DNA of 64,000 nucleotides from Gautieria morchelliformis (Eukaryota > Basidiomycota > Agaricomycetes > Gomphales > Gomphaceae), in the NCBI GenBank assembly GCA_015179125.1, contig WHVA01000572.1, positions 1-64,000 on the forward strand. The letters run 5' to 3'. Each line of letters begins with the position of its first letter. Positions within the stretch are counted from its first letter, which is position 1. The translations under genes and the position numbers were made by a program. Below, piece after piece: positions 1 through 29,552 of the stretch. The notes beneath the pieces are model-generated. The model was not told where the DNA came from and searched no databases. It worked only from the letters and a program-made list of their open reading frames with translations.

Positions 1-172
1 AAGAGGCAATCGGATGCCACCCCCACCTTCTTCCGATGACTGTTGCGACAAGACCGCTCCGGTAGCTGCGTCGGAAGAATCCGCCTCCACTCGGTAAGGG
101 CGAGAGTCGTCGGGAAAGATCAGGACCGGGGCGGAAGTGATCAGCTCTTTGAGTTTGTCAAAGGAGGCCGTT
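1..172 (-). pseudogene. Pol continuation: start of RNase H, out of frame with RT
   Basis: Directly after the RT tail the minus strand encodes FDKLKELITSAPVL and then DDSRPYRVEADSSDAATGAV. This is the classic connection-to-RNase H block (VEADASD...GAVL) of Ty3 elements. It is shifted by one base relative to the 141-1988 frame, which points to a single-base indel at about 165-175. The frame is open to the window edge, so the rest of RNase H and the integrase lie outside. Confidence 0.85.
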
Positions 173-3810: not shown

Positions 3811-4454
3811 GGTGCTTCTTTTGGCTCACCCGGTGGGTTCATTCTAGAAGGGGAGGGTGTAAGGAAGTAGATTCCCAGGGGGGGGGGTCCACAAGACCCC
3901 GCTGTATAGTAGTGCGTGGGAACTGCCCGGCAGTTCCCCAGCTTAACTTACCTTGTAAACTGTCACTACGTAGCATCAGAATCCCACAGCTTGGTTGATC
4001 TCTGCTGCTCTTGTGATACCCCCAAGGCTCTAAGTTTACTCCTTTACAGTGTTAGAGCACTGGCAGCGCACGAAAATAAAAGACCTACGGTGAAAGCGGA
4101 AGAAGTGAACAGGCCTCAAAAATGTTCAACAATATGTATGTAGTACAAAATAGTCGCCCGGACGACTTTCACTGAAAGCCGTTGCCCGTTGGCTACTGTT
4201 AAACCTACAAGTTTGCCGACACAGCACGTGTTGTAGAAAAAGCGTTTAATGTGGCCGTACCATGGGAAGACGCCCCTGCATTGCTACTCTAGTACACGAC
4301 GTCACCGCGAGAACAGTAGAACAGAGTACGTGTACCAAATAGAGGTTGAGATAAGATAGACACCGTAAAACGGGTCCAAAGTTTACTAATCTGCTTACAA
4401 ATTCGCGAAGAAATACCTTTTTCAGCAAGAAAAGGATTACGAAATACGTCGATA
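3811..4454. other. Spacer between the LTR and the first Helitron; no gene seen
   Basis: About 640 bases without a coding signal that I recognise. It has a C/G-homopolymer patch (about 3880-3900) and a short palindrome-like CTGCCCGGCAG at about 3923. The base before Helitron H1 is A (4454), as expected for Helitron insertion between A and T. Confidence 0.6.
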
Positions 4455-4548
4455 TCTAAGAGTTAAACGCGCTCAGTGGGTTGTGGGCGTCGAGGCTGAC
4501 TAATAATATTACAAATAATGTTACGTAATAATTAGGTCAGCGGAGCGA

Positions 4549-4561
4549 GCGGCGCAGCCGC
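4549..4561. repeat. Subterminal palindrome shared by all five Helitrons
   Basis: GCGGCGCAGCCGC forms a 5-bp stem with a GCA loop about 95 bases inside the 5' end. The same motif is at 11801-11813 (H2) and 18507-18519 (H3), with slight damage at 24778-24790 (H4) and 26300-26311 (H5). It is preceded in H1, H2 and H4 by an inverted pair built on CTGAC/GTCAG. Conservation in otherwise different 5' regions suggests a transposition or transcription signal. Confidence 0.7.
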
Positions 4562-4729
4562 GAGCCCTAGGCCCAGGCCCAGCGCAGACCTTGCCGGTAC
4601 AGCGCTGGGTGACCTGGCAGACGCTGCGCAGCCGGTCCCCTCTGCCCTCCTTCTACCATCATCCCATCCTATCCCATCCCTCCCACCACCTGCATCTCTT
4701 CTATTAACTTCCTATCTAGGTTCTTTCTG

Positions 4730-6030
4730 GTGAGTTTGATGCTACTGAAACTGCCTTTTTTTATGTTTGTTATTTATAATTTCGCTTTTTTGGCCTTTTT
4801 TAGGGACTTTTCAAGTGACATTTGTCCTGTCACTGCTGCACCTGCTACCTGGCTGTTTCTGGTGAGTGTTATGGTATTGTATCTGCCTTTTCTTGATGCT
4901 TATTATGTTCTTTTTTGCTATAATTTCGCTTTTTTGGCTTTTTTTAGGCACTGCTCAAGTGATATTTGTCCTGTCACTGCTGCACCTGCTATCTGGCTGT
5001 TTCTGGTGAGTGCTATGCTATTGTACCTGCCTTTTCTTGATGCTTATTATGTTCTTTTTTGCTATAATTTCGCTTTTTTGGCTTTTCTTAGGCACTGCTC
5101 AAGTGATATTTGTCCTGTCACTGCTGCACCTGCTATCTGGCTGTTTCTGGTGAGTGCTATGCTATTGTACCTGCCTTTTCTTGATGCTTATTATGTTCTT
5201 TTTTGCTATAATTTCGCTTTTTTGGCTTTTTTTAGGCACTGCTCAAGTGATATTTGTCCTGTCACTGCTGCACCTGCTATCTGGCTGTTTCTGGTGAGTG
5301 CTATGATATTGTACCTGCCTTTTCTTGAGGCTTATTATCTTCTTATTTGCCATAATTTCGCTTTTTTGGCTTTTTTTAGGCACTTTTCAAGTGACATTCT
5401 TTCTGTCACTGCTGCACTTGCTACCTGGCTGTTTCTGGTGAGTGCTATGATATTGTACCTGCCTTTTCTTGAGGCTTATTATCTTCTTATTTGCCATAAT
5501 TTCGCTTTTTTGGCTTTTTTTAGGCACTTTTCAAGTGACATTCTTTCTGTCACTGCTGCACTTGCTACCTGGCTGTTTCTGGTGAGTGTTATGGCATTGT
5601 ACCTGCCTTTTCTTGATGCTTATTATCTTCTTATTTGCCATAATTTCGCTTTTTTGGCTTTTTTTAGGCACTTTTCAAGTGACATTCTTTCTGTCACTGC
5701 TGCACTTGCTACCTGGCTGTTTCTGGTGAGTGTTATGGCATTGTACCTGCCTTTTCTTGATGCTTATTATCTTCTTATTTGCCATAATTTCGCTTTTTTG
5801 GCTTTTTTTAGGCACTTTTCAAGTGACATTTGTCCTGTCACTGCTGCACCTGCTACCTGGCTGTTTCTGGTGAGTGTTATGGTATTGTATCTGCCTTTTC
5901 TTGATGCTTATTATGTTGTTATTTGCTATAACTTTGCTTTTTTGGCATTTTGTAGGCACTTTTCAAGTGCATTTGTCCTGTCACTACTGCATACCCTACC
6001 TGGGTATTATCCCCTTTCTGGTAAGTTTTT
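4730..6030 (+). repeat. Tandem 144-bp intron/mini-exon-like cassettes in H1
   Basis: GGTGAGT recurs at 4861, 5005, 5149, 5293, 5437, 5581, 5725 and 5869, an exact 144-bp period. Each unit reads as an 86-base intron (GTGAGT ... pyrimidine tract ... TTTTTTTAG) plus a 58-base block starting GCACT and ending GGCTGTTTCTG before the next donor. A 434-codon open frame crosses the array only because 144 is divisible by three; its hydrophobic repeats are those of the T-rich tracts. A last GTAAGT...TGCAG intron (about 6020-6053) precedes the RepHel start. The array most likely lies in the 5' leader of the RepHel transcript. Confidence 0.8.
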
Positions 6031-6181
6031 GTAACTGTATCTGCTGTTTGCAGTATTTATATTAGGATCAGTGGCTTTGCAATCCGTCTGAGATACCCGC
6101 ACAGCCTGTTTTCCCTGAGTTTGCCTTATTCTGCTTGCGATGTAAGTCTGATATTGATATCTTTATTCTCTCTCTACTCTT

Positions 6182-8104
6182 ATGCCTGCATTTCTCAGGG
6201 ATCCATCTACCCCAGAGAGCATCCGTTGGCAGGTGCGTCAAAGTGCGAGGGAGGGGCAGGAGGTAATGACACCACCCAGTCATCGGAGAGCGCGTCGGAG
6301 AGCGCATATTGGAGCTCAGAACCAGCCACCCCCTCCACCACCGCCTTTTGCCATCCCTCACCCTCCTTCTAGAAGCAGTGCAGCCGATCCTTTTCAACAA
6401 CCTGTGGCAGGGCCATCACGTCCACCAATGCCTGCGGCGCCATCACTTGCTCCTGATCCCAGTCCTACAGAGCAGGTGGCAGCCCTTCGTGCTCAGTTAG
6501 CAGTTATCACACCATGGCAGCCCCTGAGAGGACATAGGCCAGACCCTGTACAGCCAGCTCCATTGCACCCTCCTACGCTTGCGGGGCCATCATATCCACC
6601 TGATCCCAGTCCTGGAGAGCAGGTGGCAGCCCTTCGTGCACAGTTAGCAGCTATCCCACGATTACAGCCCCTCAGAAGAAATAGGCCTGACGCTGGACAG
6701 CCAGCTCCTGTAGCAGGTTCTGCAGCAATTGCTCAGTTGCGTGCTCAGGCGGCTGGAATTGGACAACCTGTAGTAGGCTCTACAGCGGTGGCAGATTTGC
6801 GTGCTCATGCTGCTGGGTTACAGCCTATCCCAGCACAGCCCTTGGGAAGACACAGGCAGGCACCTTTACAACCAGCTCCTAGACCTCCTGTAGTAGGTTC
6901 TGCAGCAATTGCTCAGTTGCGTGCTCAGGCGGCTGGAATTGGACATTTGGCAGTAGGCTCTACAGCGGTGGCAGATTTGCATGCTCACACTGCTGGTATA
7001 CAGCCTATCCCAGCACAGCCCTTGGGAAGACCCAGGCAGGCACCTTTACAACCAGCTCCTAGACCTCCTGTAGTAGGTTCTGCAGCGGTCGCAGCATTGC
7101 GGGCTCAGGCTAATGCAGTAAGACCAATGCCTCGGCTACTCCCTGCACTTCTGCGGCCTCTTCAGCGACTGCCTGCACCTCCTCAGCCTCCTCAGCCACT
7201 CCCTGCTCCTCCTCAGCCTCCTCAGCCACTCCCTGCTCCTCCTCAGCCTCCTCAGCCACTCCCTGCACCTCCACAGCCTCTTCAGCCACTCCCTGCACCT
7301 CCTCGGCCTCCTCAGCCACTCCCTGTACCTCGGCAGCGTCCTCAGCGACCTCCTCCTCCTGTTCCACTTGGTCGCTCTAGAATAATTGAGGCAGATGTGC
7401 AGCGTCATGATCTGGGTCCCATGGTTATTCCCTGCCCTGACTGTGGAGCATTACACTGGATGGCAGAACGCCTGCAGAGATCCTCAAATCGGCGGCCCAG
7501 ATTTGGTGATTGCTGTATGGAAGGAAAGGTGCAGCTTCCAGAGCTGCCAGTGCTCCCTCAGCCATTGAGACGGCTCTTAGAGGGCCAGGACCCTGAGGCC
7601 AAACAGTTTCGCCAGAACATCAGGCAGTACAATGCTGCATTTGCATTCACTTCCTTGGGAGCTGAGTTTGATCTAGATTTGCTTCGGGAGGGTCGTGGTC
7701 CATATGTCCTCAAGCTGCAGGGCGAACTGTATCATATTCATGGCTCTCTCATCCCTAACCCTGGGAGGCGGATACAGTATGCCCAACTTTATATATATGA
7801 TCCAGCATTGGCTTTGGCACAGAGGAACACCCGTAACCCAGGTCTGTCTCCAACTATCATGGGAGACTTGCAGGAAATGCTCCTCTTATGCAATCCTCAT
7901 GTTCCCATATATAGACAAGCGGCCGAGAGGCTCAGAGCTCAGGGACAGAATGGTGAGATCCGGCTAGGCTCACGTACAGGGAACACAGGGATCCTAGGAG
8001 GTATAATATCCCTACTGCGGATGAGATTGCGGTGGTTCTTCCTGGAGATGGCATCATCCCTGAACCTAGGGATATTATTGTCCAGCTCAAAGGTGGACGT
8101 TTAA
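6182..8104 (+). CDS. RepHel N-terminal region (zinc-finger and Pro-rich part), H1
   Basis: First frame of the H1 Rep-helicase, 640 codons from the ATG at 6182, the first start after the leader introns and one conserved in H2 (13194) and H3 (19339). Residues about 60-310 hold repeated Ala/Gln/Pro segments such as VGSAAIAQLRAQAAG; 310-400 is a PAPPQPPQPL repeat. From about 415 comes the conserved Helitron block: a CPDCGALHW zinc-binding motif with a later CC pair, then NIRQYNAAFAFTSLG and YHIHGSL. The frame loses register near 7965 (one base missing compared with H2), so its last 45 residues are not native. It would contribute DNA binding to the transposase. Confidence 0.85.
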   Translation: MPAFLRDPSTPESIRWQVRQSAREGQEVMTPPSHRRARRRAHIGAQNQPPPPPPPFAIPHPPSRSSAADPFQQPVAGPSRPPMPAAPSLAPDPSPTEQVAALRAQLAVITPWQPLRGHRPDPVQPAPLHPPTLAGPSYPPDPSPGEQVAALRAQLAAIPRLQPLRRNRPDAGQPAPVAGSAAIAQLRAQAAGIGQPVVGSTAVADLRAHAAGLQPIPAQPLGRHRQAPLQPAPRPPVVGSAAIAQLRAQAAGIGHLAVGSTAVADLHAHTAGIQPIPAQPLGRPRQAPLQPAPRPPVVGSAAVAALRAQANAVRPMPRLLPALLRPLQRLPAPPQPPQPLPAPPQPPQPLPAPPQPPQPLPAPPQPLQPLPAPPRPPQPLPVPRQRPQRPPPPVPLGRSRIIEADVQRHDLGPMVIPCPDCGALHWMAERLQRSSNRRPRFGDCCMEGKVQLPELPVLPQPLRRLLEGQDPEAKQFRQNIRQYNAAFAFTSLGAEFDLDLLREGRGPYVLKLQGELYHIHGSLIPNPGRRIQYAQLYIYDPALALAQRNTRNPGLSPTIMGDLQEMLLLCNPHVPIYRQAAERLRAQGQNGEIRLGSRTGNTGILGGIISLLRMRLRWFFLEMASSLNLGILLSSSKVDV

Positions 8105-8117
8105 AAGGGTATCCGAT

Positions 8118-9662
8118 ATGAATCCAAACTATGCCTCTCTTCACTATGTCTTGCTCTTTCCCAGGGGAGAGTTGGGGTGGCAACCTGGTATTCGCTATCG
8201 CCAATTACCAGACGGGCGTGAGCGAAGTGGGCGTGTCACTCAAATTCAGTTCCATTCCTATTGTCTCTTCCAGAGAACAGAAGAACCTACAACACTCCTG
8301 CGCGCTGGCAAATTATTCCAGCAGTACATTGTAGACTCTTGGGCCGCTGCAGAGCAAAGCAGGCTGTGGTGGATCAGGACAAATCAACACACTCTCCGTG
8401 CTGAGATGTATAACCAGATGATGGATGCCTTTCATCGCAATGACAATGACAGAGATCCAAACAACTTGGGCGCAAGATCCATTCTGCCTGCCACATTTCA
8501 GGGGGGGACACGGGACATGCAGGAAAACCTGCAGAACTCTCTGGCCATTTCAAGGAAGCATGGTGTGGCAGATCTCTTTATTACCATGACTGCCAATCCC
8601 AACTGGCAGGAGGTATTGGATGCATTGTTGCCTGGACAAACTCCTCAGGACAGGCCTGACCTGGTGTCGCGGGTGTTCCAGCTCAAAAAGAAATACCTCA
8701 TTGACTTGATCGTCAAGGAAAAGATTTTTGGGGAAACCGTCGCTCGCGTCCACACCATTGAATTCCAGAAAAGGGGACTCCCACACATGCATATTCTTAT
8801 CTGGTTTGAACGAGATTCCAAGATCAGACATCCACATGAGGTGGATTCAATGATTTCGGCAGAGTTCCCTGATCCAGAGACTCATCCTGTCCTCTACCGG
8901 TTGGTCTGTGAGCTGATGACACATGGTCCCTGTGGACAAATGAAACCAAACGCACCCTGCATGGAAAATGGCAAGTGCAAGAAAAACTTCCCAAAGCCAT
9001 TCTGTGAGGAAACCAGTCTGAATGAGGATGGATATCCAAAATATCGTCGTCGCAATGATGGAAGGCTGCACAATGTCAGAGGTGACATGCTGGACAACAG
9101 ATGGGTTGTGCCATACTCTGCCCTGCTCTTGCTCAAATTCTGGTGTCACATCAACCCTGAACTCACCATCAATGTGAGGTGTATCAAGTATATCCACAAG
9201 TATCTCTACAAGGGCCATGATCGGACCACCATGGAGTTTGGTCGCACCCAGGATGAAATTAAGCAGTACCTGGACGCTCGCTATGTCAGTGCTCATGAGG
9301 CCTGTTGGAGGTTGCTGGAGCGGGAAATCCACACCCAGGTGCCTGCAGTCATGGCACTGCCAGTCCATGAAAAGGACCACACACAATCATCTTTGATCCC
9401 GACCAGGATGTGGACAACATCCTGGAAAGGGCTGAGGCAAAAAAGACACCGCTCATGGCTTACTTTGAGGCCAATGATATCTACCCTGAAGCACGTGATC
9501 TGCTCTATGTGGAGTTTCCTGAGCATTTTACCTGGCACTCACAGGACAAGGTATGGACACCACGCCAAGGAGGTTATAGCATCGGTCGCCTTCACTTTGC
9601 AAACCCTAGATCAGGAGAGAGATTTTTTGTGCGACTCTCCTCACAGTGGTCAAGGGGGCTAG
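8118..9662 (+). CDS. Rep nuclease domain (Helitron-like N), H1
   Basis: Second frame of the H1 RepHel. Its ATG is not a true start: the homologous reading continues upstream in this frame, and H1 lacks one base near 8100 relative to H3. Conserved features are FITMTANPNW (about residue 153), the metal-binding HMHILIWF motif (HUH type, about 223) and KYIHKYLYKGHDR (about 357-370), which contains the catalytic tyrosines of Helitron Rep proteins. The enzyme nicks and joins DNA strands during rolling-circle transposition. After residue about 420 (base 9385, next to a CA-dinucleotide run) the frame drifts. The correct reading goes on at 9410-9640 and then 9646-9830 in other frames. Confidence 0.88.
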   Translation: MNPNYASLHYVLLFPRGELGWQPGIRYRQLPDGRERSGRVTQIQFHSYCLFQRTEEPTTLLRAGKLFQQYIVDSWAAAEQSRLWWIRTNQHTLRAEMYNQMMDAFHRNDNDRDPNNLGARSILPATFQGGTRDMQENLQNSLAISRKHGVADLFITMTANPNWQEVLDALLPGQTPQDRPDLVSRVFQLKKKYLIDLIVKEKIFGETVARVHTIEFQKRGLPHMHILIWFERDSKIRHPHEVDSMISAEFPDPETHPVLYRLVCELMTHGPCGQMKPNAPCMENGKCKKNFPKPFCEETSLNEDGYPKYRRRNDGRLHNVRGDMLDNRWVVPYSALLLLKFWCHINPELTINVRCIKYIHKYLYKGHDRTTMEFGRTQDEIKQYLDARYVSAHEACWRLLEREIHTQVPAVMALPVHEKDHTQSSLIPTRMWTTSWKGLRQKRHRSWLTLRPMISTLKHVICSMWSFLSILPGTHRTRYGHHAKEVIASVAFTLQTLDQERDFLCDSPHSGQGG

Positions 9663-10194
9663 ATCCTTTGAGGAGCTTAGGTCGGTGGATGGCATACAAT
9701 ATGCTACTTACAAGGAGGCCTGTCGTGCAAGGGGACTTCTGGATGATGATCAGGAGTTGAGGTTGTGTCTCCAGGAAGCCAGTGGCATGAAAACAGGTGC
9801 TCAGCTCAGACATCTCTTTGCCACCATCCTTGGCCATTGCAATCCATCGGGCCCGGCAGACTATGGGATGGCTTCAGGGAGCACATATGTGATGATCTCA
9901 GACATCAGCTCCAAATCAGACATGGTATGCAGGATCCACAGGACGATCAGGTTTATGATTTTGGCCTCTTTCTCTTGGAAAAAATCCTCCAGCAGGGTGG
10001 AATGTCCTTGAGCAGCTTTGATGATATGCCTCGGGTGGCAGGCGAGTGGGAGGCCCTCATTGGAAACAGGTTCATAGCTGAGCAGAGGGACTATGACCTG
10101 TTGAGAGAGGGACATAGCTGATGAGGAGGTTCCCAGGCTGAATGAGGGGCAAAGGTCGCGCATGATCAGATATTACGGTCGGCACTGACCAGAG

Positions 10195-10698
10195 ATGCTC
10201 ATGGGAAACCTGATGGACAAATGTTTTTTGTCACTGGCTCAGGTGGGCGCCGGGAAATCATTCACATGGAACACTCTAATCCACTCCTGTAGAGCGGAGA
10301 GCCTCATTGTGATTGCAGTAGCCTCATCTGCAATGGCTGCACTTATCCTCACTAAGGGTACAACCTCTCATAGCATGCTTGGAATTCCCATTCCTGTCCA
10401 TGAGCGCTCTTTCTCCTCCATCAAAAAGAACTCTGACAAGGCTGACATGCTGAGACAGGCCAGTCTCCTCATCTGGGATGAGGCTGCAATGCAGCATCGC
10501 CATGCCATAGAGGCCATTGACAGGACACTGAGGGATTTCCTTGACCAGCCTGACAGACCCTTTGGTGGCATCACAGTCGCCTTTGGAGGTGACTTTCAGC
10601 AGACTCTCCCAATTGTCCCTAAAGGCTCCAAGGAGGATATCGTGGGAGCTACCCTTCAGAAGTCATATCTGTGGCCAAAGATCAATGTCCTCATCTGA
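10195..10698 (+). CDS. Pif1-type helicase domain, N-terminal half, H1
   Basis: Third main frame of the H1 RepHel. It carries the Walker A motif GAGKSFTW, the SSAMAALIL and TSHSMLGIP blocks, Walker B IWDEAAM, and motif III GGDFQQTLPIV, all diagnostic of Pif1-family helicases fused to Helitron Rep. The stretch just before Walker A is out of register by one or two bases compared with H3. The frame breaks again near 10690, where a base is missing relative to H2. The helicase unwinds the donor strand during transposition. Confidence 0.88.
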   Translation: MLMGNLMDKCFLSLAQVGAGKSFTWNTLIHSCRAESLIVIAVASSAMAALILTKGTTSHSMLGIPIPVHERSFSSIKKNSDKADMLRQASLLIWDEAAMQHRHAIEAIDRTLRDFLDQPDRPFGGITVAFGGDFQQTLPIVPKGSKEDIVGATLQKSYLWPKINVLI

Positions 10699-10900
10699 CA
10701 GAGAACATGCGGGTGAGAAATGACCCTGACAGAGCCAGGTTTGCAGAATGGCTGCAGAATGTGGGCCAGGGAAAGGATCTCCCACTAGATCATACGTTCT
10801 CACTCCCTCCTCACATGGTTTGTGGCCCTGGAATTGAAGATCTGATCCAGGAAATATACCCTGGCATTGGCAATCATGTCCCTGCCCAGGACAATTACTT

Positions 10901-11527
10901 TTGGAGCGTGCCATCCTCTGTGCCAGAAACACTGAGGTCAATGAGATCAATTCCATGGTGTTTAGGGAGTTTCCAGGTGATGCTCAGGTCTTGCACTGCG
11001 CAAATTCCATTGAAGAATCCGACGATGCAGATCGGTATCCTGTGGAGTATCTGAATTCCATAGAGATGGGCTGTCTTCCTCCTGCTCGCTTGGAAGTCAA
11101 GCCTGGAGTGCCTCTGATGCTGTTGCGCAATTTGGATCAGAAGCAAGGACTATGCAATGGGACAAGGTTGCGGTTGGTGAGGATAAGCATTAGAGTGTTG
11201 GAGGTCAGGATCATCTCAGGTCCACGTGCAGGCAATATTGCTTTCATCCCCAGGATCATCATTAAGCCATCAGAGGGAGAGTTGCCATTTGTGCTGCAAA
11301 GGAGGCAGTTTCCAGTGCGTTTGGCATTTGCAATGACTATCAACAAGTCTCAGGGACAGTCTTTGGGTACGGTTGGGCTGGACCTGAGATATCCAGTGTT
11401 TGGACATGGTCAGTTGTATGTTGGTGTATCAAGAGGGACCAACTGGAACAGAGTCAAGGTCTTGCTTGAGGAGGGTTTGGACACAACCAACATTGTATAT
11501 AAAGATGTATTACTTAGAGCTCCTTGA
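10901..11527 (+). CDS. Pif1-type helicase domain, C-terminal half, H1
   Basis: Last frame of the H1 RepHel. From about residue 50 it gives the Pif1 C-terminal motifs: [46 protein letters not shown] (motif V) and GQLYVGVSR (motif VI). It ends at TGA 11525-11527 after YKDVLLRAP. This end is nearly identical in H2 (TGA 18277-18279) and H3 (24522-24524). About 180 bases separate it from the 3' hairpin of the element. Confidence 0.88.
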   Translation: MERAILCARNTEVNEINSMVFREFPGDAQVLHCANSIEESDDADRYPVEYLNSIEMGCLPPARLEVKPGVPLMLLRNLDQKQGLCNGTRLRLVRISIRVLEVRIISGPRAGNIAFIPRIIIKPSEGELPFVLQRRQFPVRLAFAMTINKSQGQSLGTVGLDLRYPVFGHGQLYVGVSRGTNWNRVKVLLEEGLDTTNIVYKDVLLRAP

Positions 11528-11683
11528 TTTTTTTATATCCACTTCTCTTGATATGATTTATGTGTTTTACTTCATTGTACTTGATGCAAATTGATTACTT
11601 TGATTTTCCCCAATGTACTTGACCTTACTGATATGTTAGACTTACTGGATGCATTTGACCCTACCGAGGCGTTGACCTACACC

Positions 11684-11710
11684 CCGCGCGAAGGCGCGGT
11701 ACCCACCTAG
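11684..11710 (+). other. Helitron H1 3' terminus with hairpin
   Basis: The 6-bp stem CCGCGC/GCGCGG with a GAAG loop, then an 11-base spacer TACCCACCTAG ending in the CTAG terminus. Equivalent ends: H2 18403-18425 (stem reduced to 3 bp), H3 24671-24698 (7-bp stem, GAA loop), H4 26205-26233 (same with one mismatch), H5 29397-29421 (GTGC/GCAC stem). The spacer TACCCACCTAG is identical in H1-H4. Known Helitrons use this hairpin as the termination signal. Confidence 0.9.
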
Positions 11711-11989
11711 TCTAAGAGTTAAACGCGCTCAGTGGGTGTGGGCGTGAGGCCTGACTAATATATTACAAATAATGTTACGTAAAATTAGTCAGCGGAGCGA
11801 GCGGCGCAGCCGCGAGCCTAGGCCCAGGCCGCAGCGGACCCTTGCCCGGTACAGCGCTGGGTGACCTGGCAGACGCTGCGCAGCCGGTCCCCTCTGCCCT
11901 CCTTCTACCATCATCCCATCCCATCCCATCCCTCCCACCACCTGCATCTCTTCCATTAACTTCCTATCTAGGTTCTTTCTGGTGGTTTG

Positions 11990-13060
11990 ATCTACTGAAA
12001 CTGCCTTTTTATGTTGTTATTTATAATTTCGCTTTTTGGCCTTTTTAGGACTTTTCAAGTGATTTGTCCTGTCACTGCTGCACTGATACTGGGTGTTTCT
12101 GTGAGTGTTATGTATTGTATCTGCCTTTTCTTGATGCTTATTATGTTCTTTTTTGCTATTTTCGCTTTTTTGGCTTTTTAGGCACTGTCAAGTGATATTT
12201 GTCCTGTCACTGCTGCACCTGCTATCTGGCTGTTTCTGGTGAGTGTATGTATTGTACTGCCTTTTCTTGATGCTTATTATGTTCTTTTTTGCTATAATTT
12301 CGCTTTTTGGCTTTTTTTAGGCACTGCTCAAGTGAATTTGTCCTGTCACTGCTGCACTGCTATCTGGCTGTTTCTGGTGAGTGCTATGCTATTGTACTGC
12401 CTTTTCTTGATGCTTATTATGTTTTTTTGCTTATTTCGCTTTTTTGCTTTCTTAGGCACTTCAAGTAATTTCTGTCACTGCTGCACTGTTGGCTGTTCTG
12501 GTGGTGCTATGCTATTGTACCTGCTTTTCTTGATGCTTTTTGTTATTGTTTTGTTTAGGCACTTCAAGTGATATTTTCTGTACTGCTGCACTCTATCTGG
12601 CTGTTTTGGTGGTGTATATGTACCTGCTTTTTTGAGGCTTTTTCTTTATTTCCATAATTTCGCTTTTTGGCTTTTTTTAGGCACTTTTCAAGTGACATTC
12701 TTTCTGTCACTGCTGCACTTGCTACCTGGCTGTTTCTGGTGAGTGTTATGCATTGTACCTGCCTTTTCTTGATGGCTTATTATCTTCTTATTTGCCATAA
12801 TTTCGCTTTTTTGGCTTTTTTTAGGCACTTTTCAAGTGACATTTGTCCTGTCACTGCTGCACCTGCTACCTGGCTGTTTCTGGTGAGTGTTATGGTATTG
12901 TATCTGCCTTTTCTTGATGCTTATTATGTTGTTATTTGCTATAACTTTGCTTTTTGGCATTTTGTAGGCACTTTTCAAGTGCATTTGTCCTGTCACTACT
13001 GCATACCCTACCTGGGTATTATCCCCTTTCTGGTAAGTTTTTGTAACTGTATCTGCTGTT
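11990..13060 (+). repeat. Degenerate intron/mini-exon-like array in H2
   Basis: Same cassettes as in H1: TTTTTGGCTTTTTTTAG followed by a GCACT...GGCTGTTTCTG block and a GGTGAGT donor. The first five or six units have lost many single bases, so spacing is irregular and no long frame is open. The last two units (12660-12960) and the following GTAAGT...TGCAG intron are well preserved and match H1. Confidence 0.7.
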
Positions 13061-13193
13061 TGCAGTATTTATATTAGGATCAGTGGCTTTGCAATCCGTC
13101 TGAGATACCCGCACAGCCTGTTTTCCCTGAGTTTGCCTTATTCTGCTTGCGATGTAAGTCTGATATTGATATCTTTATTCTCTCTCTACTCTT

Positions 13194-18279: not shown

Positions 18280-18957
18280 TTTTTTTATATCCACTTCTCT
18301 TCATATGGTTTATGTGTGTTACTTGATTTTACTTGATGCAAATTGGTTACTTTTATTTCCCCAATGCACTTGACCTTACCGATGCGTTTGACCTACACCC
18401 CACGCGAAGCGCGGTACCCACCTAGTTCTATAGGTGAAGTAGCACGTGGGAGGTTGTGGGCGCGCTTACAACATATTATGTCAAGTTATGTCAGCGGAGC
18501 GCGCGAGCGGCGCAGCCGCGAGCCCCACCAGCGGTTTGCGCCACTCTTCCGGCTCCAGCGCTGCGCAGCGTTCTGGAGCATGCGAGCGGCGCAGCCGGAG
18601 CGGTTTAGGCCGGTCTGCTCAGGCGCTCAAAGCAGCGCTGCGCTGGCAGATCGCTGCGCAGCCAGCCGCTTTGCGCACTCCACCACCACCCTCCTCTCCT
18701 CTCCTCTCTGCCCACTACTAGATAGAATAAAAATTGCGTGAGAGTGAATTAATAGATAGCCTATATAGTGTAGTACACAAAAGATCTCTTCCCAGGGAGA
18801 TCTCTGCAGTGAACTATTGGGGTTGACCTCTTCAGTGGGGCAGCTTTTTCTCTGCTAAGGAGCCAGGTAGTGATCCCAGGCTGCCTTAGAGGGAGCCACA
18901 ATTGCATTGCAGTTCTTTCAGTGTTGACTTGCACTACTGGTGGCTGAAGAAGACATC

Positions 18958-18986
18958 TCCCAGGACCAGGACCAGGACCAGGACCT
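18958..18986. repeat. Hexamer microsatellite in the H3 leader
   Basis: About four to five copies of CCAGGA/GACCAG in a row. Short and probably of no coding meaning, because it lies upstream of the RepHel start. Confidence 0.7.
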
Positions 18987-19338
18987 TTTACTGGAATTAT
19001 TCCAGTTGGATAGCCGAAGAAGACTTGGATATTTTCATCAAAAAAATTCCCATCCCTTCCTTGGTACATATATTTCTCTGTGGTCTGGTGTGAGCCATCT
19101 GACAGTTTTTTTTTGTTTTTAAATAGAAATTAATAAATTCCCTTGACTTTGCCTAACAAACAAAACTCCCATCCTTCCTTGGTATGTATGTATTTCTCTG
19201 TGGTCTGGTGTGAGCCGTCTGACATTTATTTAATTAGAAATTAATAAATTCCCTGACTTTGCCAAGAAAAATTAACAAAACAGCATCTGCTTGCAAATGT
19301 AAGTTGAAGTGGGGTAGCTTGATTGTTCCTCTAAGCTT

Positions 19339-22300
19339 ATGCCTGCATTTCTCAGGGATCCTTCTACTCCAGAGAGAAATCGTCAGCAGGAGCGTGAAAG
19401 GGCGAGGGAGGAGCAGGAGGGTCGTATGACGTCGCCTACTGATCGGAGAGCGCGTGCCCTTGCTGTGGCTGCTGCCAGAGCTCGGAACCAGCCACCCCCT
19501 CCACCACCTCCTTTTGCCATCCCTCACCCTCCTCCTAGAAGCAATGTGGCTGATCCTTTTCAACAACCTGCTGCAGAGCCATTACGTCCTCCTGATCCCA
19601 GTCCTGGACAGCAGGTGGCAGCCCTTCGTGCTCAGTTAGCAGCAATCCAGCAGCACAGCCCTTGAGAAGATACAGGCAGGAGCCGATACAGCCACCTCCT
19701 AATCTTCCTGTGGTTGGTTCTGCAGGAATTGCACAGTTGCGTGCTCAGGCTGCTGAGCCAGCACAGCCCTTGAGAAGATACAGGCAGGAGCCATACAGCC
19801 ACCTCCCAATCTTCCTGTGGTTGGTTCTGCAGGAATTGCACAGTTGCGTGCTCAGGCTGCTGAGCAGTCTGCTATATTGCAGCAATTGGGAAGGGGTAGA
19901 CAGGCAGCTAATCCTCCTGTAGTAGGTTCTGCAGGAGTGGCAGCATTGCGTGCTCAGGCCAATGCAATAAGACCAATGCCGCCGCTACCCTGCGCTTTTG
20001 TGGCCTCTTCAGCGACTCCCTGCACCTCCTCAGCTGCTCCCTGCACCTCCGCAGCCTCCGCAGCCACTCCCTGAACCTCCTCAGCCGCTCCCTGACCTCC
20101 TCAGCCGTCCCTGCACCTCCTCAGCCGCTCCCTGCACCTCCTCAGCCGCTCCCTGCACCTCCTCAGTGCTCCCTGCACCTCCTCAGCTGCTCCCTGCACC
20201 TCCTCAGCCGTCCCTGCACCTCCTCAGCCGCTCCCTGCACCTCCTCAGCCGCTCCCTGCACCTCCTCAGCTGCTCCCTGCCCTCCTCAGCCGCTCCCTGC
20301 ACCTCCTCAGCCGCTCCCTGTACCTCGGCAGCGTCCTCAGCGACCTCCTCCTCCTTTCCACTGGTCGCTCTAGAATAATTGAGGCAGATGTGCAGCGTCA
20401 TGATTGGGTCCCATGGTTATTCCCTGCCCTGACTGTGGAGCATTACACTGGAGGCAGAACGTCTGCAGAAATCCTCAAATGTGCGGCCCAGGTTTGGTGA
20501 TTGCTGTATGGAAGGAAAGGTGCAGCTGGAAGACCTGCCAGAGCCCCCTCAGCCATTGAAACAGCTCTTAGAAGGCCAGGACCCTGAGGCAAAAGGATTT
20601 CGCCAGAATATCAGGCAGTATAATGCTGCGTTTGCATTCACTTCTGTGGGGCCGACTTTGACCAAGATTTGCTTCGGGAGGGTCGTGGTCCATATGTGCT
20701 CAAGCTACAGGGTGAACTGTATCATCTCCATGGCTCTCTCCTCCCTGACAATGAAGACGATCCAAAGTATGCCCAGCTTTACATATATGATCCTGCACTG
20801 GCTTTGGCAAAGAGAAAAAATCGTAATGAGCGTCTGTCTCCAACTATCATGGGAGACTTGCAGGAAATGCTCCTGCTATGCAATCCTCATGTGCGCACAT
20901 ATAAACAAGCAGCTGAGAGGCTCAGAGCTCAAGAACAGAATGGTGACATCCAGGCAAGGCTCACTACAGGGCACACAGGGATCCTAGGAGATATAATGTC
21001 CCAACTGCAGATGAGATTGCAGTCGTTCTTCCTGGAGATGGCATCGACCCTGGACCTAGGGATATTATTGTCCAGCTCAGAGGTGGACCTTTCAGAAGGG
21101 TATTGGATACCAATGCAAACTATGCCTCTCTGCACTATGTCTTGCTCTTTCCCAAGGGAGAGTTGGGATGGGAACCAGGTATTCCTTATCATGAGCCAGA
21201 GCGTGCTCGGCAGGCCAATCCCAATCCAAACAGACGGACACAGGTCACCCAAATACAGTACCATGCGTATCGTCTGTTCCAGAGAGCGAGAGAACCTACA
21301 ACACTCCTGCGTGGTGGCAAATTGTTCCAGCAGTACATTGTAGACTCCTGGGCTGCTGCAGAGCAAAGCAGACTGAGGTGGATCAGGGCCAATCAACACA
21401 CTCTGCGTGCTGAGCAGTATAACCAGATGGTAGATTCATATGGAGGCTTGGACAATGACATTGGAGATGCAAACAGCTTGGGCATAAAAGTCATTCTGCC
21501 TGCGACATTTCAAGGAAGTACACGGGACATGAATCAAAACTGCCAGAACTCCCTGGCCATTGCAACAAAGAAGGGTCCCCCTGATTTATTTATTACCATG
21601 ACTGCCAATCCAAAGTGGGATGAGATAGTGGCCGAGTTGCTCCCTGGACAAACTGCTCAGGACAGACCTGACCTGGTGTCGCGGGTGTTTCACCTCAAAA
21701 AGAAATACCTCATTGACTTGATCGTCAAGGACAAGATCTTTGGAGAAACGTCGCTCGCGTTCACACTATTGAATTCCAGAAGAGGGGGCTCCCACACATG
21801 CACCTGCTTACCTGGTTCGATAGGGAGTCCAAGGTCAAACATCCACATGAGGTGGATTCTATGATTTCAGCAGAGTTCCCTGATCCAGAGACACATCCTG
21901 TCCTCTACCAGTTGGTCTGTGAGCTGATGACACATGGTCCCTGTGGACAAATGAATCCAAAGCACCCTGCATGGAAAATGGCAAGTGCAAGAAAGGCTTC
22001 CCAAAGCCATTCTGTGAGGAGACCGTTGTGAATGTAGATGGATATCCAAAATATCGTCGTCGCAATGATGGAAGGCTGCACAATGTCAGAGGTGACATGC
22101 TGGACAACAGATGGGTTGTGCCATACTTCCTCTGCTCTTGCTCAAACTCCGGTGTCACATCAACCTTGAATTCACCTTCAGTGTGAGGTGCGTCAAGTAT
22201 ATCCACAAGTATCTATACAAGGGCCACGATCGGACCACATGGAGTTTGGTGTCACCATGATGAGATAAAGAAGTACCTGGACGCTCGCTATGTCAGTGCT

Positions 22301-24524
22301 CATGAGGCCTGTTGGAGGTTGCTGGAGCGGGAAATCCACACCCAGGTGCCTGCAGTCATGGCACTGCCAGTCCATGAAAAAGACCAGCAATCATCGTTTT
22401 CAATCCTGATGCTGATCCGCTCACCATCATGAACAGGGTCGGGGTCAAAGACAGCGCTCATGGCTTACTTTGAGGCCAATGCTGCCTACCCTCATGCACG
22501 CGATGTGCTCTATGTGGATTTTCCTGAGCATTTTACCTGGAAAAAGAGGAAAGGGTATGGACACCACGTCAAAGGGATATAGCATTGGACGCCTTCACTT
22601 TGCAAGCCCAAAATCAGGAGAGAGATTTTATTTGCGCACTCTCCTCACGGTGGTCAAGGGGGCCAGATCCTTTGAGGAGCTTAGGACGGTGGATGGCATA
22701 CAATGTGCTACTTACAAGGAGGCCTGTCTTGCCAGGGGACTTCTGGAGGATGATCAGGAGTGGAGGTTGTGTCTCCAGGAAGCCAGTGGCATGAAAACAG
22801 GTGCTCAGCTCAGACATCTCTTTGCCACCATCCTTGGTCATTGCATTCCTCACACCTGACAGACTATGGGACGCTTCAAGGAGCACATATGTGATGATCT
22901 CAGACATCGGCTCCAAATCAGACACAATATCCAGGAGCCACGGGATGATCAGGTCTATGATTTTGGCCTCTTTCTCTTGGATAAACTCCTTCAGCGTAAT
23001 GGAATGTCCTTGAGCAGCTTTAAAGATATGCCTCGGGTGGTAGGCGAGTGGGAGGTCCTGATTGGAAACAGGTTCATAGCTGAGCAGAGGGACTATGACC
23101 CTGTTCAAGAGAGGCAGATGGCTGATGAGGAGGTTCCCAAGCTGAATGAGGGGCAAAGGTCTGCGCATGATCAGATATTACGGTCGGCACTGACATAGAT
23201 GCTCAGGGAAACCTAATGGACAAATGTTTTTTCGTCACTGGCTCAGGGGGCGCTGGGAAATCATTCACATGGAACACCCTAATCCACTCCTGTAGAGCGG
23301 AGAGTCTCATTGTGCTTGCTGTAGCCTCATCTGCAATGGCTGCACTTATCCTCACTAATGGGACAACCTCTCACAGCATGCTTGGAATTCCAATTCCTGT
23401 CCATGAGGGCTCTCTCTCCTCCATCAAAAAGAACTCTGACCAGGCTGATATGCTGAGACTGGCCAGGCTCATCTTTGGGATGAGGCTGCAATGCAGCATC
23501 GCCATGCCATAGAGGCCATTGACAGGACACTGAGGGATTTCCTTGACCAGCCTGACAGACCCTTTGGTGGCATCACGGTTGCCTTTGGAGGTGACTTTCA
23601 GCAGACTCTCCCAATTGTCCCAAAGGCTCCAAGGAGGATATCGTGGGAGCTACCCTTCAGAAGTCATATCTGTGGCCAAAGATCAAGGTCCTCCATCTGA
23701 CAGAGAACATGCGGGTGAGAAATGACCCTGACAGAGCCAGGTTTGCAGAATGGCTGCAGAATGTGGGCCAGGGAAAGGATCTCCCACTAGATCATACGTT
23801 CTCACTCCTCCTCACATGGTTTGTGGCCCTGGAATTGAAGATCTGATCCAGGAAATATACCCTGGCATTGGCAATCAAGTCCCTGCCCAGGACAATTACT
23901 TTTGGAGCGTGCCATCCTCTGTGCCAGAAACACTGAGGTCAATGAGATCAATTCCATGGTTTTAGGGAGTTTCCAGGTGATGCTCAGGTCTTGCACTGTG
24001 CAAATTCCATTGAAGAATCCGACATGCAGATCGGTATCCTGTGGAGTATCTGAATTCCATAGAGATGGGCTGTCTTCCTCCTGCTCGCTTGGAAGTCAAG
24101 CCTGGAGTGCCTCTGATGCTGTTGCGCAATTTGGATCAGAAGCAAGGACTATGCAATGGGACAAGGTTGCGGTTGGTGAGGATAAGCATTAGAGTGTTGG
24201 AGGTCAGGATCATCTCAGGTCCATGTGCAGGCAATATTGCTTTCATCCCCAGGATCATCATTAAGCCATCAGAGGGAGAGTTGCCATTTGTGCTGCAAAG
24301 GAGGCAGTTTCCAGTGCGTTTGGCATTTGCAATGACTATCAACAAGTCTCAGGGACAGTCTTTGGGTACGGTTGGGCTGGACCTGAGATATCCAGTGTTT
24401 GGACATGGTCAGTTGTATGTTGGTGTATCAAGAGGGACAACTGGAACAGAGTAAGGTCTTGCTTGAGGAGGGTTTGGACACAACCAACATTGTATATAAA
24501 GATGTATTACTTAGAGCTCCTTGA
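19339..24524 (+). pseudogene. Helitron RepHel gene of H3, frameshifted
   Basis: ATG 19339 gives the same MPAFLRDPSTPE start as H1/H2. Readable pieces are 19339-19665, 19817-20074, a long region of short Pro/Leu/Ser-coding repeats (20000-20370), 20481-20960 (zinc-finger block), 20669-20960, 21103-21760 (Rep N-terminal part with FITMTANPKW), 21798-22000 (the HMHLLTWF metal motif lies just upstream), 22590-22860, 22866-23190, 23216-23470 with an undamaged Walker A region VTGSGGAGKSFTW, 23491-23700 (GGDFQQTLPIV) and 24041-24440 (motifs V and VI). Single-base indels separate these. It lacks one base near 20965 where H2 is intact. Confidence 0.85.
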
Positions 24525-25059
24525 TTTTTATATCCACTTCTCTTGATATGATTTATGTGTTTACTTCTTTACTTGATGCAAATTGATTACTTTGATTTTC
24601 CCCAATGTACTTGCTTACTGATTGTTAGACTTACTGATGCATTTGACCTACCGAGGCGCTTGACCTACACCCCGCGCGAAGCGCGGGTACCCACCTAGTC
24701 TAAGAGTTAAACGAGCAGGTGGGTGGTTGTGGGCCTGCTGACAAATAATGTTACGTAAAATTAGGTCAGCGGAGCGAGCGGCGCAGCCGGAGCCCTAGGC
24801 CCGAGGCCAGACCATTGACGCTGCGCAGCAGCGTCCAGGTCACGTGACCGGTTCGCGTTCGTCGCGACCATACGCGAGGGTGGTCCGTGCACGACCCTTC
24901 GCTCGGTATAAAGAGAGCGATGCTGCAGAACCGCACTCCCCACTGGTGTCTTCCTGTGTTCTGGCTGTGCTGGTGGGCTTACTATTGCTTTGGCTGGGCT
25001 CTGGGTGTCTTTGTGTGTGTCTCTGGGTGTCTCTGGGCTTCTCTGGCTGTGAATTGACA

Positions 25060-25430
25060 CCAGCTTCTGCTTCAATGTCCTGTATTTTTTTTTGATATTT
25101 TTTCGCAAATACATATCAATAAACCTAACTTTTAATAGCCAACTCAATTATCCTGTACATTTTTTGATATTTTTTCGCAAGTAGATATCAATAACTTATT
25201 CTGACTTGGCTAAAGTTAATAACAACTTCTGTTTTAATGTAGTGTGTTTTCTTTTTATCTTTTTTTGAAAAATAAATATAGATATCAATGAATTATCCTG
25301 ACTTTGCTAAATTTGTACCAACTTCAGCTTAAATGTAGTGTACATTTTTTTGACATTTTTTCAAAAGGTAGATATCAATAAATTATCCTGACTTTGCTAA
25401 AATTAATGACAACAGCTGCTTAAATGTGGT
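25060..25430. repeat. Imperfect ~100-bp tandem repeats in H4
   Basis: Four units each containing TTTTTTGA(C/T)ATTTTTTC, then AGATATCAATAA, then TCCTGACTTTGCTAA, and an ACAACTTCTG-like stretch. Similar words (AGATATCAATAGATTTCTCTGA type) recur in H5 at 28070 and 28530, so the two non-autonomous Helitrons share a repeat family. Confidence 0.7.
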
Positions 25431-25479
25431 TTCTTTTGCTATTGTATATATGTCACAAAATAGATACTGATACATGTCC

Positions 25480-25772
25480 CTGATATGTGTGAGGACACAT
25501 TACGTTTGGGGACATGCTACCTGTGAGGACACGCTACCTGTGAGGACACGCTACCTGTGAGGACACGCTACCTGTGAGGACACGTTACGTGTGAGGACAC
25601 ACTACCTGGGGGACACGTTACATGTGAGGACACGTTACGTGTGGGACATGTTTATGTTGGGACATGTTTGTGTGGGGACACGTTATGTGTGAGGACACCC
25701 TACCTGTGGGGACACGTTACGTGTGAGGACATACTACCTGTGAGGACACGTTACGTGTGAGGACATGCTATC
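25480..25772. repeat. GC-box minisatellite in H4
   Basis: About 15 imperfect copies of a 17-18 bp unit close to CTACCTGTGAGGACACG; some units read TTACGTGTGAGGACACG. There are no spacers, so this is a minisatellite and not a CRISPR array. Confidence 0.85.
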
Positions 25773-26639
25773 CAACTGCACTTTGGGTCTTCCCCCATTT
25801 CTGTTTTGGCATTGTTTCTGGTTCTGTGAGTGTCACCGGAGGATCAGCTGGCATATCGATATAACCACATTGTCAAAATTCAGGATCCCAAGATCACTAT
25901 TGGATCTATTTCACAATGCACAAGCTTTGAAACCTGTGGATTATGACAATAGGCACAATCTTATAATCTCTGATGATTCTGTCAAGACTATTACCACTTT
26001 CATGTCTAGAGTCGCTGGAGGCCCATCCCAGAGGTCGAGAGAGAGCTCTGCATGTTCGGCTGTTCCATGGTGCATACATGATTCATGATACTATGTGATC
26101 AGGGATATATTTTGCATGATCCTATTTACCCCAATGCACTTGACCTTACTGATTCACTTGACCTTACTGATGCATTTGACCTTACTGATGGGTTTGACCT
26201 GCACCCCCGCACGAAGCGCGGGTACCCACCTAGTCTATAGTATAAAGTTGCTGGGGGTGGTTGTGGGTGTTTTACGTAATTTACTGAGTTTGAACACGAG
26301 CGGCGCAGCGCGAGCGACCAAGCAGCGTTCCTGGTCACGTGACCTGTTCGCGCGCTACTGCGCGCGCACCCACCTTCCCTCAACCCTCCTGCTGCATTTC
26401 CTCTGGTCCAACTGGCAACCTCTGGCTCTCCTGCCCCACTGTCTCTGTGCCTGCTGGATCTGTCTGTCTGCTGCTGGATCTGTGTCTGCTGCTGGATCTG
26501 TGTCTGCTGCTGGATCTCTGTGTCTGCTGTACTGGATCTCTGTGTCTGCTGCTGGCTCTCTCTGTGTCTGCTACTAGCTCTCTCTGTGTCTGGCTCCCTC
26601 TGTTTCTGTTACTGGGGCTCTCTCTCTCTCTACAGCCCC

Positions 26640-27960
26640 CTCAGGTAAATATTGTTAATATTTTCGCTTTTTATCCTCTTTTGACTTCTTTTCAGCCTAG
26701 GCTGCTCCTCTCATTACCTCCCACCTTTCTTGATGGTCATTACTGGCTCTGGTGTGTTTTGTCCTGTAATATCTATCATTTCTTCCAATAATTTTCGCTT
26801 TTTTTATCCTCTTTTTGTCTTCTTTCAGCCCCTCTCTCAATGCCTCCCACCTTGCCTGTCTGATATTGCTGCATCTGGTGTGTGTCTTGCTATCATGGTT
26901 TGATATTTATTAGAATCAGCTGCTCTCCATGGTAAATATTGCTATTTCTTGCTATAATTTTCGCTTTTTTAATCTCTTTTTGACTTCTTTTCAGCTTAGG
27001 TTGCTCCTCTCATTGCCTCCACCTTTCTTGGTCATCACTCCTGCCTCCTGTGTGTTCTTTCCTCATCATATTTCTTCCACTAATTTTCGCTTTTTTATCC
27101 TCTTTTTGCCATCTTTTCAGCCCAGGTTCCTCCTCTCAGTGCTTCCCACCTTTCCTGTCTGCCATTGCTGCATCTGATGTTTGTCTTGCTATCATATGTG
27201 TTTTGTTTTGACATTTATTAGAATCAGCTTCTCTCCATGGTAAATATTTCTATTTCTTGCTATAATTTTCGCTTTTTTAATCTCTGTTTGACTCCTTTTC
27301 AGCCTATTTTCCTCCTCTCATTGCCTCCCACCTTTCTTGATGGTCATTACTGGCTCTGGTGTGTGTTTTCCTATCATATCTATCATTTCTTCCAATAATT
27401 TTCGCTTTTTTATACCCTTTTTGCCTTTTTTTCAGCCCATGTTCCTCCCCTCAGTGCCTCCCACCTTGCCTATCTGCCATTGCTGCTTCTGGTGTGTCTC
27501 TTCCTATCATATTTATGTTGTTTTGATATTTATTAGGATCAGTTCTCTCCCTGGTATTTCTTGCAATAATTTTCGCTTTTTTAACCTTTTTTTGACTGGT
27601 TTTCAGCCTATGTTGCTCCTCTCATTGCTTCCCACCTTTCTTGGCCATCATTACTGCCTCTGGTGTGTTTTTTTCCTTATCATATCTGTCATTTCTTCCA
27701 ATAATTTTCGCTTTTTTATTCTCTTTTGGCCTTCTTTTCAGCCCAGGTTCCTCTCAGTGCCTCCCACCTTGCCTGTCTGCCATTGCTGCATCTGGTGTGT
27801 ATCTTGCTATCATATTTATGTTGTTTTATATTTATTAGGATCAGCTTCTATCTGTGGTGTTTCTTCCTGTAATTTTCTCTTTTTTGACCTCTTTTTGACT
27901 TCTTTTCAGCCCAGGTTGCTCCTCTCATTGCCTCCCACCTTTCATGCTCATCATTACTGC
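26640..27960 (+). repeat. Dimeric intron/exon-like cassette array in H5
   Basis: Acceptor-like TTTTCAG occurs near 26692, 26826, 26994, 27118, 27299, 27431, 27604, 27739 and 27907. Two unit types alternate: A (GCTCCTCTCATTGCCTCCCA) and B (CCTCTCAGTGCCTCCCACCT), giving a dimer of about 305 bp. Each unit has a block of 55-65 bases that ends in CTG|GTGTGT, then a T-rich stretch with AATAATTTTCGCTTTTT before the next CAG. The layout mirrors the H1 array, and the core TTTCGCTTTTTT is shared, although the blocks are otherwise unrelated. Confidence 0.75.
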
Positions 27961-28930
27961 ATCTGGTGTTTTTTTTTTTTTCTGTCATTCTTGCAATAAT
28001 TCTCCCTTTTTATCCCTTTTTGTATTTTATTTTATATGTATATACATATATCCTGTATAGTTTAAAAAATAGATATTAATAGATTTCTCTGAATTGGCTA
28101 AAAATTAATGAACACCCCTGCCTGCAAATATGAGTCTATTTCTCTGTTATCCATTGTATAACCTTCTGACATTTATTTATTTTCACTTGCCCCACAATAA
28201 TTTCTTTCACTTTTACGCTCTTGCAGATACACTATAAACAAGTGACATGCTACAAAAGGGAAATGCTACTTGGGGGACATGCTATGTATGGGGGCATGCT
28301 ATGCATGGGGGGCATGGTAAGCATGGGGGATCCACTATGCATGGGGACATGCTACAAACCAGGGACACACTACGCACACTATACTGCATCTGGTGTGTTT
28401 TTTTCTGTCTTTCTTGCAATAATTCTCGCTTTTTATCCCTTTTTGTATTTTATTTTATATGTATATACATATATCACCCTTCCAGCAACTTTATACTATA
28501 GATACATATATCCTGTATAGTTTAAAAAATTGATATCAATAGATTTCTCTGAACTGGCTAAAAATTAATGACAACAGCCCTGCCTGCAAAAATAAGTCTA
28601 TTTCTCTGCTATCCATTGTACAACTTCTGACATTTATTTCCTACAATAATTTCTTTCACTTTTACGCTCTTGCAGATACACTATAAACAAGTGACATGCT
28701 ACAAACAAGGGAAATGCTACTTGGGGACATGCTATGTATGGGGGCACACTATGCATGGAGGGCACACTATGCATGGGGGGCACACTATGCATGGGGGACA
28801 CCCTACACATGGGGGATAGGTTACGCATGGGGACATGCTACGCACACTGTACTTGGGAGACAGGCTACATTCAGGGTACACATGCCCATGGGGACATGCT
28901 ACACATGATTGGCACACAGACATGGGAGAA
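27958..28930. repeat. Direct duplication with minisatellite tails in H5
   Basis: The block 27958-28380 is repeated at 28383-28930: both run from CTGCATCTGGTGT through TATGTATATACATATAT and CTCTTGCAGATACACTATAA to short repeats of ACATGCTATGCATGGGG. The second copy contains a 37-base insert (28475-28511) absent from the first. Confidence 0.85.
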
Positions 28931-28953
28931 ATTTGTGGAGACATTACCTACCC

Positions 28954-29053
28954 AGATGTGTTACTTAGAGCTACTTTCAATCATGAAAAGATGTGTTTTA
29001 CCCAAGTTTCATTTACCCAATGTATTTGACCTAACCCTGGGCAAAGCACGGGT
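28954..29053 (+). other. Relic of a second Helitron 3' end inside H5
   Basis: GATGTGTTACTTAGAGCTAC matches the last RepHel codons of H1-H3, and after CCCAATGTATTTGACC the relic has CTGGGCAAAGCACGGGTA where H1-H4 carry the terminal hairpin. The CTAG terminus itself is lost. A second, more diverged match (about 29283-29316) precedes the used end at 29421. H5 therefore carries two stacked 3' ends. Confidence 0.6.
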
Positions 29054-29552
29054 ATCATCCACCCTGGCAGTGTCCCAGCACATCCAGGCTTATCCCACAG
29101 GTCCCTGTCAGTCTCAGGTCATCCAGGCTCATCCCACAGGTCCCCGGTGGTCCCTAACCAGTGCTGTGCCACATCCAGGCATATCCTGATGTGCAGCACA
29201 GGGGCATGGAGGAGTAGACTTGCAATATGCAGTATTTTCCTGTGGGCAGTTTTATGGTGCACTAATTGGACCATGTTCTTTAATATTGTATACAAAGAGG
29301 TATTGCTAAAGCCTGATTAAATATGTAGTTTCATTCCACCAAATAATTCTTTAATACTATCACTACCCCTGTGCGATGTTAGCCTTAACTAACCTGGTGC
29401 GAAGCACGGGTCATTGGCTAGTATATGAGTATCGTCAGATTTATAGTGTCGAAAACGGCATCGGAGCGCCCGTGATTGATCCTCTCTGCCAGTGCATGGG
29501 AGCGGGGATATCAAAGGTTGATTTGATGCCCGCCTACTTGTCTACAGTACAT

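Follow-up and report, generated by a model that had tools for sequence, protein, structure and literature searches.

Helitrons that lie next to one another have been described in several genomes. At maize r1, two different elements are adjacent head to tail, with the CTAG of one running directly into the TC of the other at a G/T joint; they were read as consecutive insertions in an order left unresolved (PMC2267711). Head-to-tail units are also known from the tandem arrays of bat and silkworm, which were ascribed to bypass of the terminator, and in bat and maize distant relatives lie side by side (PMC4067079, PMC5876387). In Fusarium, FoHeli4 is inserted 2 bp upstream of another element's partial 5' end, and multiple 5' termini were attributed to self-insertion, while three tandem copies in Metarhizium acridum were read as either a twofold insertion into the 5' end or the outcome of rolling-circle replication; plant centromeric Helitrons are likewise tandem, with truncated copies explicable by a circular intermediate (PMC5148889). 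Helraiser and Helibat1 have a Rep protein with an HUH motif and two tyrosines, a CTAG tail, an AT target and a circle junction that reads CTAG/TC, where the slash marks the joint (PMC4778049, PMC5876387; PDB 7lcc). Here we describe an array of five joined Helitrons in a 64,000-nt stretch of the basidiomycete Gautieria morchelliformis (contig WHVA01000572.1, positions 1 to 64,000; hereafter the window), and the frequency of such joints across the assembly.

Tandem Helitrons are already known; what is new here is the base-exact scale and the mixing of families. Maize r1 offers one pair, whereas we count 526 exact joints involving three head families, and one contig (C269) has a run of ten heads. 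The mixed, unequal units do not fit the terminator bypass to which the bat and silkworm arrays were ascribed, and they differ from the truncated centromeric copies in belonging to different families and having both termini. The Fusarium and Metarhizium examples are single cases, and FoHeli termini and targets are non-canonical; here, most of the counted heads are joined. Targeting of resident ends is not described in the Helraiser and Helibat1 text consulted, and in the portions of open-licence literature on tandem Helitrons that we consulted we found no report of a genome with most Helitron ends joined.

The array occupies positions 4455-29421 and consists of five head-to-tail elements, H1 to H5, all in one orientation, with zero gap at all four internal junctions and outer flanks that read A/TC...CTAG/T. 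In termini and orientation this agrees with the first-pass annotation of the window, which had proposed five Helitrons of the same orientation in one array. Its parts are as follows; a second contig, C692, confirms several of the borders.

4454..4455, plus strand: left outer target site, A/T (the A at 4454 is host sequence, the T at 4455 opens H1)
4455..11710, plus strand: H1, autonomous-type Helitron with a family A head (TCTAAGAGTTAAACG) and the tail GGTACCCACCTAG
11710..11711, plus strand: H1/H2 junction, CTAG/TCTAAGAG, zero gap, also in C692
11711..18425, plus strand: H2, family A head
18425..18426, plus strand: H2/H3 junction, CTAG/TTC(C)TATAGG, zero gap; the T at 18426 is the first base of H3
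18426..24698, plus strand: H3, family B head (TTCCTATAGGTGAAAG)
24698..24699, plus strand: H3/H4 junction, CTAG/TCTAAGAG, zero gap, also in C692
24699..26233, plus strand: H4, 1535 bp, family A head, non-autonomous
26233..26234, plus strand: H4/H5 junction, CTAG/TCTATAGTATAAAG, zero gap, also in C692
26234..29421, plus strand: H5, 3188 bp, family D head (TCTATAGTATAAAG), with a tail unlike the others (GGTCATTGGCTAG), non-autonomous
29421..29422, plus strand: right outer border, CTAG/T into host sequence, also in C692

All five elements end in CTAG, as expected from the 3' CTRR of canonical Helitrons. H1, H2, H4 and H5 start with TC; H3 begins TTCC, which can alternatively be read as T plus TC. 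The first-pass annotation had placed one T between H2 and H3 (18425/18427). C692 spans the array on its minus strand, from the right flank into H1, and contains all four junctions. At H2/H3 it reads CTAG/TTCCTATAGGTGAAAG; the window is short of one C and one A at this point, which looks like an assembly error. Since the family of H3 starts with TTCC and C692 shows the complete head directly after CTAG, the T belongs to H3 and there is no spare base between the two elements. C692 stops within H1, and hence the 5' edge of H1 is known from one contig only. The left flank (4049-4454) is a repeat, and 19 other listed copies of it run 2-3 bases past the insertion point (40 of 623 candidates were scored), consistent with their being a paralogous empty site at A/T.

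We counted sequence patterns over the whole 122-Mb assembly (1113 contigs, with the window as C640:1-64000). Heads of family A (TCTAAGAGTTAAACG) occur 312 times, those of family B (CTATAGGTGAAAGYR) 267 times and those of family C (CACTATATGAAARC) 280 times, and 526 of these 859 heads lie directly after CTAG (232/312, 138/267 and 156/280, respectively). By a simple base-frequency reckoning, chance would place CTAG before about 1 head in 256, or about 3 of 859, and reversed control patterns for the three joined patterns have no match genome-wide. A search for such junctions across the genome had been proposed as a check of the array, and its outcome bears the array out. The joined counts for B and C are lower bounds, because the joined patterns demand exact first bases; they miss, for example, a joined B head on C269 that starts with TCC and a joined C head on C200 whose first base is not T.

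Heads that do not follow CTAG indicate where the elements otherwise insert. For family A, the preceding base is A in 72 of 80 such heads, and we conclude that A/T is the usual target, as for canonical Helitrons, which enter between A and T without target duplication. We also fetched 20 B heads as short stretches; 7 are directly after CTAG and 13 are not, and the base before the 13 is A in 12 cases (two of which, L103 and L114, share one flank) and T in one. These 20 were chosen without several known joined heads and serve only to identify the base preceding non-joined ones. Left ends of resident elements read A/TCTAAGAG and A/TTCCTATAGG, and right ends CTAG/T. We considered and rejected an identity as Helentrons. 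Helentrons have no CTRR end, whereas the elements here end in CTAG. They also insert in TT (PMC4067079), in contrast to the A/T targets found here.

The tails give a similar picture. The base after GGTACCCACCTAG is T at 636 places (TC at 211, T and another base at 425) and a different base at 60. In 60 fetched tail loci, which include likely allelic twins, a head comes directly next in 24 of 30 TC tails and 20 of 30 of the other tails, that is, about 71% when weighted by 211 and 425. The joints are exact: for 55 of the 149 tails with listed coordinates, a listed A, B or C head lies at distance 0, against just 3 tails with such a head 1-59 bases off. The most extended run, on C269 (119319 to 150210), comprises ten listed heads, nine of them directly after CTAG. 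At least 9 of the 60 tails without a following T are internal, 388-389 bp upstream of a listed head (six of the 17 tails located on contigs as far as C281, plus three found by hand), at C135:151390, C135:158309, C162:154329, C261:26800, C261:135586, C269:138919, C364:11424, C378:67309 and C572:60769. These look like inherited copies of a single terminator bypass with capture of 3' flank.

We then compared the units within arrays, using contigs up to C281 (241 listed heads, 146 joined, of which 95 have an upstream head 0.3-8 kb away). Head types are mixed: 25 of the 95 joins are between heads of the same type, where we reckon 35 from the margins (chi-square p = 0.078 for the whole type table). 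Units are 1.55 to 7.1 kb long, although a unit containing an unlisted head would measure too long. None of 41 consecutive pairs of complete units agrees in both head type and length (within 3%), which argues for serial insertion of different elements. Thus, the data support arrays built through serial insertion of different elements at the ends of resident Helitrons. Formation in one event, through rolling-circle read-through or integration of a multimeric circle, would explain why the joints match the CTAG/TC of the Helraiser circle junction (PMC4778049), and could draw on the Rep regions of H1 and H2, which differ at only 0.5% of sites. However, families and lengths alternate along the arrays, and the ends of H1 and H2 are not mutually nearest: among the fetched loci, the first 1.4 kb of H2 differs by 1.1% from L084 but by 1.9% from H1, and the closest match of its last 1.4 kb is L034 (0.4%), with H1 outside the best eight. 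Hence the description of H1 and H2 as sister copies, made in the first-pass annotation, holds for the Rep region and fails at both ends of H2. We reject concatemers as the general source of the arrays and consider a one-event origin very improbable, although a minority of arrays could still form in this way. That the joints are artefacts of assembly is barely conceivable. The contig does contain homopolymer errors, as where H2 shows many one-base deletions relative to H1 (60 one-base gaps in H2 and 7 in H1 when the two are aligned), but all four junctions recur on C692, whose small errors are different ones, and the joints number in the hundreds, in varied contexts.

At which end of the resident the new element enters is a separate question. 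On balance we favour successive, separate insertions in which each new element enters at the end of a resident Helitron, via the A/T at the resident's 5' border, so that arrays would grow leftward. Rep, the HUH nuclease that nicks the left end of its own Helitron between the A of the flank and the initial T, would also integrate the incoming element at the left end of a resident copy, whether that copy is of the same family or a related one. On its left the incoming element would be linked to the A of the host, and on its right its CTAG would meet the first T of the resident, leaving CTAG/T between the units and a new A/T at the left border. With the target recreated, repeated rounds would produce leftward growth, uniform orientation and zero bases between units. 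Target selection would in this way lie in the end recognition of Rep, and growth would occur at the 5' side rather than at CTAG/T. In Helraiser, left-end cleavage falls between the flank and TC, and AT targets in AT-rich DNA are preferred, with AT-richness mattering most 3' of the site (PMC4778049); in heads A to D, AT makes up 67-80% of the first 15 nt. Two loci have insertions inside heads: in L053, 8 nt of a C head are followed by an A head at A/T, and in L091, 7 nt of an A head precede a whole A head. We liken these to the multiple 5' termini of Fusarium (PMC5148889). Elements at the right edge of an array, whose tail is followed by host DNA, stand at a greater distance from their closest relative in the sample than do elements with another Helitron behind them (Mann-Whitney U test, p = 0.018, 14 versus 43, with unscored elements counted as distant and L047, L060 and L061 left out as likely allelic twins). 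This age contrast and the insertions inside heads lean weakly to leftward growth.

The first-pass annotation had taken the mix of families as an argument for repeated targeting of the Helitron 3' end. In such a model Rep would cleave the CTAG/T of a resident, a new element would enter there and the array would grow rightward. Repeated insertion is upheld by the mixed joins and unlike unit pairs; the 3' end is not established as the target, because entry at the A/T on the resident's 5' border yields the same junction and the weak directional evidence leans there. Insertion at the 3' end predicts the same zero-gap joints and finds a precedent in the cleavage of Helraiser at its exact right end (PMC4778049). 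It would also fit the maize lines McC, W22 and W23, which carry only the left member of the joined pair, the authors having left the order open (PMC2267711). Yet it requires a G/T target, which the A found before most non-joined A heads does not match; right-edge elements look older, if weakly so, and not younger; and the partial heads beside joints in L053 and L091 indicate the left end as the target. We regard entry at the 3' end as unlikely, though well ahead of a one-event origin. Between these two in probability is that both ends and existing CTAG/T joints are used, with growth on either side or within the array and perhaps with two-unit blocks moving after terminator bypass. The head in L053 inserted beside an existing joint, the tails without a following T that lie 388-389 bp before heads, and the recurrence on C47 and C200, which could be alleles, of an A unit (about 1550 bp) with a C head behind it are all in keeping with such mixed growth, but the fetched data do not separate it from other serial models.

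Several points weigh against growth at the 5' side. CTAG/T is also a natural cleavage site of Rep, and growth at the 3' side would yield the same joints. The maize lines with only the left element suggest that the right element came later, unless it was excised. The age contrast weakens when only scored elements are used (p = 0.15, 8 versus 36) or when it is taken as a Fisher test (p = 0.058, 2/14 versus 19/43); the test was made post hoc, with 60 loci, and old elements standing alone could yield the same result. Left-edge heads are not clearly younger (9 versus 25, p = 0.60, the 9 including L091, which stands beside a partial head). A tail can be hit too, since on C20 (L101) a 38-nt piece of tail lies between two opposite B heads. 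Allelic sites with fewer units had been suggested as a check; for the array in the window, one search found no shorter allele, the sole 100% match to the right flank being C692, with the same units. Judged by spacing in the coordinate lists, the only duplicated arrays are C101/C122 and C47/C200, which are uninformative, and L056 and L060 are one shared locus, also uninformative.

Although head-to-tail joints prevail, a few heads face each other. Among 300 listed heads there is one head-to-head pair at zero gap, with a further two separated by 38 and 41 bases; the 149 listed tails include no tail-to-tail pair spaced 200 bp or less, and none of the 60 tails without a following T is on a contig with another such tail on the opposite strand. 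We considered these counts as a test of direction and discarded them, since there are too few events (1 versus 0 at zero gap). In the zero-gap pair, at C269:119318/119319, the coordinates alone put two B heads in direct contact; such a pair is expected if the palindromic A/T at a resident head is used in the opposite orientation. Coordinates alone also place same-strand heads 21, 57 and 74 bases apart (C295, C188 and C261), and these may be further insertions inside heads.

The following domains and 3' structure were identified in H1 and H3.

8118..9662, plus strand: H1 open reading frame with the Helitron Rep domain (PF14214, 1.1e-58), whose HMH (HUH) motif and YxxxY pair align with Helraiser (7lcc)
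10189..10698, plus strand: H1 frame with PIF1 helicase (PF05970, 2.9e-52)
10838..11527, plus strand: H1 frame with the Pif1 2B domain (PF21530, 2.5e-18)
11684..11699, plus strand: H1 subterminal 3' hairpin with a 6-bp stem
21103..21864, plus strand: H3 fragment of the Rep domain (PF14214, 5.6e-46)

H1 has the combination that defines RepHel, an HUH nuclease with two tyrosines together with a PIF1 helicase. Its YIHKY aligns opposite YLFKY of Helraiser (PDB 7lcc alignment), and, going by the residue spacing given in PMC4778049, these tyrosines are probably the counterparts of the two catalytic tyrosines of Helraiser. H2 matches both Rep (PF14214, 7.9e-21) and PIF1 (PF05970, 8.5e-45), in each case in broken frames. 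The named matches to Rep are from plants and fungi. H4 and H5 had been called non-autonomous, and this is borne out: 12 frames of at least 90 amino acids that lie wholly inside them or span their junction have no Pfam match. Canonical Helitrons carry a hairpin about 11 nt before the 3' end; near the 3' ends here, H1 and H3 have stems of 6-7 bp, those of H2 and H5 are weaker, and H4 pairs differently (z from -0.70 to -1.81).

The Rep region of H3 differs from that of H1 by about 10%, and yet the last 400 nt of the two elements (11311-11710 and 24299-24698) align with zero substitutions and 15 gap positions. Over the stretches that were aligned, eight Rep loci, selected for having the best domain matches, mostly share about 97-99.5% identity. 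From these comparisons, the elements appear to be mosaics drawn from a young population of similar copies. Repeated leader units that resemble reiterated small exons and introns are present in H1 (4730-6062), H2 (12101-13075) and H5 (26645-28471). In H1 and H2 the unit is 144 bp, with GTGAGT (9 in H1, 5 in H2) and a T-tract ending in TTTTAG; the leader of H5 contains TTTTCAG eight times and GTGTGT ten times.

Elsewhere in the window, pieces of a Ty3-type long terminal repeat retrotransposon (gag with a zinc knuckle, protease and reverse transcriptase) lie next to the array on the minus strand, at 141-3358. Of the best 120 matches to the reverse transcriptase, the named ones include Lyophyllum, Mycena, Agrocybe and Psilocybe, as well as a frog and an alga. 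A coding region for WD40 repeats extends over several overlapping frames at 45334-47496, and is perhaps disrupted by small indels.

Joined Helitrons have so far been explained by concatemers or by consecutive insertion. More than 500 exact joints between mixed families show that serial insertion can be the rule, and the number of replicates is sufficient to resolve, through alleles or strains, which way arrays grow, so that the old question of insertion order becomes testable. We see roughly even odds for a wider proposal: that incoming Helitrons of several families integrate in this genome mainly at the left ends of resident copies, the specificity of end cleavage doubling as the choice of target, with A/T renewed at each insertion and arrays growing at one end as mixed, ordered records of activity. 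If the resident end is the target, the Rep cleavage with which transposition begins would also account for the choice of target, and a mobile element present in high copy number would stay clustered with others of its kind.

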